DNA from: Spirochaetales bacterium
Lineage (GTDB): Bacteria; Spirochaetota; Spirochaetia; Sphaerochaetales; Sphaerochaetaceae
Assembly: GCA_012838275.1 (NCBI GenBank)
Contig: DUPO01000133.1
Location: 1-64,000 of the forward strand
Direction: 5' to 3'
DNA length: 64,000 nucleotides
Below are positions 19,076 to 21,968 of the stretch, one piece after another. Numbering within the stretch: the first letter of the stretch is position 1; every line of letters begins with the position of its first letter. Position numbers and translations under genes: made by a program. Below the pieces are notes generated by a model. That model worked only from the letters and a program-made list of their open reading frames with translations, had not been told where the DNA came from and ran no database searches.

Positions 19076-19276
19076 CTAATTCCTGCCGGACATCATCAAC
19101 AACAGACCTGAAACTGCAGCAGCAGCTCCTCCTATGAGGTACCACATGGTCTCCTTGCCAAATTTGAACCCCAAAAACGATCGAAGTGATTCAGATGCGG
19201 ATTGGGAGGCAAAATATCCCCCAACGATAAGCGCCACACCGCCAACAAACAGTACGATTCCAAGTATACGTGTCAT
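19076..19276 (-). CDS. Small DUF3185-like membrane protein, copy 1
   Basis: 66 aa, two TM; GIVLFVGGVALIVGGYFASQSASESLRSFLGFKFGKETMWYLIGG. Confidence 0.72.
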   Translation of the reverse strand: MTRILGIVLFVGGVALIVGGYFASQSASESLRSFLGFKFGKETMWYLIGGAAAAVSGLLLMMSGRN

Positions 19277-19341
19277 ACATATCTTCCTTTTTCTTTCAGC
19301 GATAATCTACAAGGAGTAGAAACACAAAACCTCAAACAGTT

Positions 19342-19545
19342 TTACCTGCTCATCAAAACAAACAGACCGGATAGAAAAGCGGCTATACCGCCAAGAATGA
19401 ACCACATGGTCTCCTTGCTGAACTTAAATCCCAAAAAGGACCGAAGTGACCCGGAAACAGACTGAGACTTGATGTACCCTCCCCCAAGAAGAGCGAGGCC
19501 ACCAACCAGCAATACAATCCCAATAACCTGATTACTCATATACAC
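19342..19545 (-). CDS. Small DUF3185-like membrane protein, copy 2
   Basis: 67 aa paralogue; GIVLLVGGLALLGGGYIKSQSVSGSLRSFLGFKFSKETMWFILGG. Confidence 0.72.
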   Translation of the reverse strand: MYMSNQVIGIVLLVGGLALLGGGYIKSQSVSGSLRSFLGFKFSKETMWFILGGIAAFLSGLFVLMSR

Positions 19546-21167: not shown

Positions 21168-21216
21168 AAAAGTGCATGCTACAATTCATCTCTGTTCATG
21201 AACTGTAGCGTACACT
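21166..21216 (-). terminator. Strong hairpin terminator of the SHOCT cassette
   Basis: AGTGCATGCTACAATTCAT / ATGAACTGTAGCGTACACT long imperfect stem, followed by TTTTTT on the minus strand. Confidence 0.75.
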
Positions 21217-21248: not shown

Positions 21249-21518
21249 CTACTTCAGATCTTTTTTCATTTTCTGGAATTCTTCTGTGGTCACTTCTCCC
21301 TTGGCATAGCGATTCTTTAAGATTGCCAATGCTTGAGAGTCGTCATTGATCAGGTTGTGTTTTTTCCTGATGCTCACAAGAAGCAGTACAACAAGGAGTA
21401 TGCCGACAACCATGAGGGCGATCATCAACCAAAATCCCCAAGGGGAATCCATATAATTCAGACAGGCGAATCTGCCTGACCTGGGCATCCCTCTAAAACC
21501 CCAATAATATCCATGCAT
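21249..21518 (-). CDS. SHOCT-domain membrane protein
   Basis: One TM plus C-terminal ALAILKNRYAKGEVTTEEFQKMKKDL (SHOCT motif). Confidence 0.82.
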   Translation of the reverse strand: MHGYYWGFRGMPRSGRFACLNYMDSPWGFWLMIALMVVGILLVVLLLVSIRKKHNLINDDSQALAILKNRYAKGEVTTEEFQKMKKDLK

Positions 21519-21535
21519 CTAAACACCTCCTGTAT

Positions 21536-21724
21536 TTATTTGCTGAGTTCTTCTCTCATTCGAAAAAACTCATCTTGCGATAGCGATCCTTCTGCATATC
21601 TCTGCTTGAGTATCTCCAAAGGTGACTTTTCATCTGCTTTCGATATGTGATTCCTGTTTAAGTCTGGATTTCTGAAAACAACATACAAAAGCAGGATAAA
21701 GACCAGTAATGGTATAAACATCAT
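21536..21724 (-). CDS. Small SHOCT-domain membrane protein
   Basis: N-term TM plus PLEILKQRYAEGSLSQDEFFRMREEL. Confidence 0.82.
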   Translation of the reverse strand: MMFIPLLVFILLLYVVFRNPDLNRNHISKADEKSPLEILKQRYAEGSLSQDEFFRMREELSK

Positions 21725-21734
21725 ATAGCGCTCC

Positions 21735-21753
21735 TTATACCCCTAGGGGGTAT
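21735..21753 (-). promoter_or_regulatory. CsoR-family-like operator upstream of the SHOCT cassette
   Basis: Minus strand TATACCCCCTAGGGGTATA, 10 bp upstream of the SHOCT ATG region and abutting its AAGGAG SD. Confidence 0.65.
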
Positions 21754-21898
21754 ATGTTCATCTTTGTACGTTTTTTCACTATATGTCAATCTTTTACCCT
21801 AGTGAAATGCTGGGTTTTTAAGGAAACGGATGATATTTATATATTTTTGCCTAGTATGTTGCAAATGCAGGCTCTTGTTACATAAAATGTGTATCGCA

Positions 21899-21950
21899 TT
21901 CCCATACAACAAAGGACACTCCCTCGGGAGTGTCCTTTGTTGTATGGGAA
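21899..21950. repeat. 52-bp near-perfect palindrome (25-bp arms, 2-nt loop); includes the V-ATPase operon terminator-like stem
   Basis: TTCCCATACAACAAAGGACACTCCC-TC-GGGAGTGTCCTTTGTTGTATGGGAA. Confidence 0.9.
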
Positions 21951-21968
21951 CCGTTGTTCAGTAACTTT

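Follow-up and report, generated by a model that had tools for sequence, protein, structure and literature searches.

The closest described counterpart of the locus analysed here is the CsoR regulon of Streptomyces lividans, in which a type 2 operator is found at copZA (PMC3902906). Published CsoR operators combine a TAC-X9-GTA dyad with G tracts and flanking TA; in Streptomyces the consensus reads ATATACCCCTNAGGGGTATAT, and operators of type 2 belong to CsoR and those of type 1 to RcnR (PMC3902906). On the protein side, the SHOCT family (PF09851) was described by Eberhardt et al. (2013; PMC3581485), where self-oligomerisation was tested without support and no definite role was assigned. SHOCT genes adjoin copper islands in archaea, such as the copper fitness islands of Cuniculiplasma and Mia14 (PMC5498576), and a silver-induced SHOCT protein is on record (PMC10694973). 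No paper dealing with SHOCT and CsoR together was found in the open-licence literature searched.

The locus studied here, a pair of SHOCT genes behind a palindrome, lies in a stretch of 64,000 nucleotides from a Spirochaetales bacterium (the window), and it was compared among 26 genomes of its genus. The genus shares with S. lividans the operator consensus, the TAC-X9-GTA dyad, the location of the operator at the promoter, the csoR-copZ-copA core and a sensor of the Cys-His-Cys/RLxR kind, but it has in addition a separate transcription unit for a pair of small membrane proteins with a SHOCT domain (PMC3902906). Both proteins agree with the described family in passing the Pfam cut-off and in carrying a C-terminal SHOCT domain preceded by a hydrophobic helix, and whereas the family paper leaves the role undefined, regulation and neighbours point here to copper (PMC3581485). 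The archaeal islands and a cluster of the Ilyobacter plasmid pILYOP02, in which a SHOCT gene lies among genes for a multicopper oxidase, a cupredoxin and a metal sensor, resemble our locus in the vicinity of SHOCT and copper genes, but no paired SHOCT genes are described there and the other neighbours differ (DUF302, multicopper oxidase; PMC5498576). Thus, operator and sensor are of a known kind, and the SHOCT pair as a member of a CsoR regulon is not described in the open-licence literature that we found.

The two genes are encoded on the minus strand, shoct1 (62 aa) at positions 21536–21724 and shoct2 (89 aa) at 21249–21518. Upstream of them, on the same strand, a -35 hexamer TTGACA (21784–21789) is followed after a spacer of 18 by a probable but weak -10 hexamer, AAAGAT (21760–21765), the best candidate, with 3/6 matches. 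The palindrome TATACCCCCTAGGGGTATA occupies positions 21754–21736, and its end overlaps by one base a Shine-Dalgarno sequence AAGGAG (21731–21736), in such a way that the arrangement proposed in the initial annotation, a palindrome between a TTGACA-type promoter and the ribosome binding site, was found as described. The strong terminator also claimed there corresponds to a minus-strand hairpin at 21216–21171 followed by T6 (-31 kcal/mol, z = -5.2). Another strong minus-strand hairpin (21895–21953; -46 kcal/mol, z -9.9) separates the pair from the upstream gene for a V-type ATPase subunit, and because of this hairpin and the downstream terminator the pair can be considered its own transcription unit. 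The gene flanking it on the other side, in opposite orientation, encodes an O6-methylguanine-DNA methyltransferase.

The palindrome was then compared with the published operators. It is the sole site within 3 mismatches in the window, where 0.01 would be expected by chance, and it reads ATATACCCCCTAGGGGTATA, fitting both the ATATACCCCTNAGGGGTATAT consensus and the TAC-X9-GTA rule (PMC3902906). Its dyad, TAC-CCCCTAGGG-GTA with TA/TA flanks, is the inverted repeat of a type 2 operator. Within the genus, an operator-type site was found at the equivalent place before the shoct1 orthologue in 13 of the 26 genomes (G000, G003, G006, G010, G011, G016, G017, G019, G020, G021, G023, G024 and G025), several of which are closely related, so that the 13 occurrences cannot be taken as independent; the site was seen in six different versions. 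In all 13 the 17-bp core begins 6 bp past the -10 hexamer, the location at the promoter typical of a CsoR-type operator, and lies 10–12 bp ahead of the ATGATG of shoct1, with TTGAC(A/G) equally placed as -35 and AGGAG between palindrome and start. Conservation of operator and pair in relatives, as the initial annotation had asked for, was found in half of the genomes compared.

Similar sites are present in relatives upstream of csoR-copZ-copA and also ahead of the gene for another P1B ATPase, which has a CPH motif and scored as a copper ATPase (TIGR01511; CopB type), so that the operator lies there at copper efflux genes. The genomes of the genus contain 13 exact 17-bp sites, 12 of which precede csoR, copB or shoct1, the G025 site on C2 being assigned through its identity with sister genomes, and a reversed-pattern control gave zero matches in most genomes. 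Several one-mismatch matches in other genomes fell within open reading frames and were treated as chance. A gene for csoR was detected in 17 of the 26 genomes and in 11 of the 13 with operator and SHOCT pair, the exceptions being the window's genome and G021. The consensus match, the position kept in 13 species and the presence in relatives of csoR and of matching operators ahead of csoR-copZA and copB strongly support the prediction that the palindrome is a CsoR-type operator, as the initial annotation had proposed, and at the level of the genus a CsoR reading is well supported. Counting against a CsoR regulon, G009 and G022 have csoR and a SHOCT pair that lacks the operator, and G001 and G002 show degenerate sites only. 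Beside csoR, in several genomes, a second operator copy faces a divergent gene for a thioredoxin-like lipoprotein (L091, 2627–3400; L095, near 13020), which is likely a further member of the regulon.

The initial annotation had also presented the pair as a stand-alone system with no copper exporter nearby. This holds at the window's own locus, where neither csoR nor a P-type ATPase gene appeared in the translated 15–28 kb, and the whole-genome searches with PF02583 and CopA gave zero matches on the contig of the window (C49), but it does not hold in relatives. On single contigs of G003, G023, G006 and G001 the SHOCT pair lies 4–13 kb from csoR-copZ-copA, and in G020, G024 and G025 csoR and the pair are close together by coordinates. 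The pair of the window's species and that of G016 have another neighbourhood, beside V-ATPase genes. Gene order in G017 and in G372, from a different genus of the same family, is copB (TIGR01511, CPH motif), shoct1, shoct2, a 223-aa SHOCT protein and a small ferredoxin-like protein, and in G337 the gene for a 228-aa SHOCT protein comes after a copB. Since in several relatives the pair sits either within 4–13 kb of csoR-copZA or immediately after copB, the absence of an exporter near the window's pair is a local relocation and not the mark of a stand-alone system.

The second SHOCT pair and the 223-aa SHOCT protein behind copB are nearly identical in both genomes (L179, 2229–3533, in G017; L172, 7703–9007, in G372), and such near identity of the second pair across two genera suggests horizontal transfer; a tblastn search of plasmids with the 223-aa protein found nothing. 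In G017 and G025 the palindrome preceding the second SHOCT pair, ACACCCCCTCGGGGGTGT, is symmetric but lacks TAC/GTA and was therefore not counted as a CsoR site. In it, TATA is changed to CACA/TGTG on both sides.

Both proteins passed the Pfam SHOCT cut-off of 27, with 28.1 bits for the 62-aa and 36.9 bits for the 89-aa protein, which bears out the two SHOCT reading frames of the initial annotation. In shoct1 an N-terminal hydrophobic helix is followed by the domain at residues 35–60 of 62, whereas shoct2 begins with about 25 variable residues, followed by one hydrophobic helix, a basic loop and the domain at residues 62–88 of 89. A structure model of shoct2, of low confidence (mean pLDDT 67), showed helices at 26–72 and 78–88. 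Comparison of shoct2 orthologues found no invariant metal-ligand residue, and this speaks against conservation of a copper site in the N-terminal part. A search of genome contigs with the 89-aa protein gave one weak match in Verrucomicrobia (L020), an unrelated longer protein that was discarded.

Taken together, these data make it likely that shoct1 and shoct2 are transcribed together as a unit of the copper (CsoR) regulon of the genus, and they suggest an accessory role of the pair in copper export or in copper stress at the envelope. In the predicted mechanism, CsoR tetramers would sit on the palindrome and block initiation when Cu(I) is not in excess, since the palindrome begins 6 bp past the -10 and covers the expected transcription start. 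Binding of Cu(I) by the Cys-His-Cys residues would release CsoR, and the pair would then be made along with copZ, copA and, in several species, copB. Both proteins are expected to be inserted in the inner membrane, the SHOCT ends probably facing the cytoplasm, and most likely they would assist the copper ATPase or take part in copper handling or copper stress at the envelope. The conservation of the operator in relatives that have the sensor and copper pumps suggests that the pair belongs to the copper-defence response.

The window's own genome fits this scheme less well. It is a metagenome-assembled genome (MAG) of 2.36 Mb in 229 contigs, 95% complete, and a whole-genome search with PF02583 did not find csoR in it, formally the outcome that the initial annotation had named as speaking against its own proposal; as the assembly is an incomplete MAG, this absence is not decisive. 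Nor was an orthologue of the csoR-linked CopA found there: the best match, which is also the best P1B ATPase of this genome, is a CopB-type protein on C104 with 38% identity, and no recognisable operator was detected at its gene, a result that counts against the CsoR regulon. Also against it, csoR and the csoR-linked copA were not found in G021 (MAG, 92% complete) either, although both genomes keep a perfect palindrome. A synteny check placed the kamA-like neighbour of the csoR region of G016 on C226 in the window's genome, with no csoR beside it. The further operator copies for which the initial annotation had suggested a genome scan did not appear, as the pattern scan found no second good site in this genome, and a relaxed scan gave 28 forward sites versus 24 in the reversed control and is therefore uninformative on further targets.

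All 16 complete csoR products examined share RLARIEGQ, YC, ENH and TC, that is, RLxR and Cys-His-Cys, in this family the DNA-contact motif and the Cu(I) site, respectively, so that a Cu(I)-type CsoR occurs in the genus. Related G/C-tract palindromes are used by CstR, RcnR and FrmR, and control by one of these paralogues would make the pair answer to persulfide, nickel or formaldehyde; nevertheless, this is highly improbable given the Cu(I) residues of the csoR products, their NCBIfam scores (best RicR with 79.5 bits, under its cut-off of 175; RcnR 33.9 and FrmR 31.1, far under cut-off), the same sites preceding copper ATPase genes, and the type of the site, 2 (CsoR) and not 1 (RcnR) (PMC3902906). 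Of the metal or persulfide induction expected in the initial annotation, copper is thus retained as a prediction, whereas sensing of nickel, zinc or sulfide is disfavoured because the complete csoR products examined in the genus carry the Cu(I) Cys-His-Cys and RLxR. A true loss of csoR and copZA in the window's species, leaving the palindrome as a relic or to another regulator and the pair constitutive or rewired, would explain why csoR and the csoR-linked CopA are missing from both this MAG and G021, and it has a parallel in the single-contig genome G004, which lacks csoR and keeps copA. Moreover, the operator-less SHOCT genes of G009, G013 and G004 lie near two-component genes, and the regulator may thus have changed at these loci. 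Even so, an unused site should decay, and the palindrome of the window is among the most perfect of the genus, while no such site precedes the SHOCT genes in G004, G005 and G013, where csoR was not found. Behind copZA in G016 there are transposase-like ORFs, located at a contig end, and regions of this kind are often missed in MAG assembly. We consider true loss unlikely and, because the palindrome is perfect here and absent before the SHOCT genes of these three genomes, favour a csoR-copZA region missing from the assembly.

With CsoR as the preferred regulator, the role of the pair was weighed between copper handling and membrane stress. We tentatively propose that the pair is a dedicated module of copper homeostasis, a small hetero-oligomeric partner in the inner membrane that might dock on CopA or CopB or buffer Cu(I) at the membrane, and that might switch between CsoR and two-component control across lineages. 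Somewhat doubtful, yet of real weight, is a general membrane-stress adaptor or scaffold that is copper-induced incidentally and is not the copper-handling partner of the ATPase: SHOCT-like domains are predicted as membrane anchors and linked to PSP envelope-stress systems (PMC11237479), versions of the genes that lack the operator lie near two-component genes, and metal ligands in shoct2 are not conserved. The recurrent linkage to csoR, copA, copB and multicopper oxidases speaks for the copper-specific partner instead, and PSP genes were not noticed in the SHOCT neighbourhoods examined. SHOCT proteins are widespread, and the conserved CsoR operator together with the linkage to copper ATPases makes a SHOCT role directly testable. 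If the assignment to the regulon is true, the known content of CsoR regulons is widened; a dedicated copper module, if true, would be the first function for a family of single-helix SHOCT proteins.

Some further observations were made on the loci compared. The SHOCT genes without CsoR operator in L097, L099 and L182 lie near genes for a response regulator and a histidine kinase. In G016 (L198, 2560–5432) a second copA, with a CPC motif, has a second csoR-like gene behind it. In the window, the hairpin at 21895–21953 is near-perfect and exceeds an ordinary terminator in length, and at 19076–19545, on the minus strand, two adjoining genes encode small membrane proteins of 66 and 67 aa, both DUF3185 (PF11381), likely a tandem duplication.
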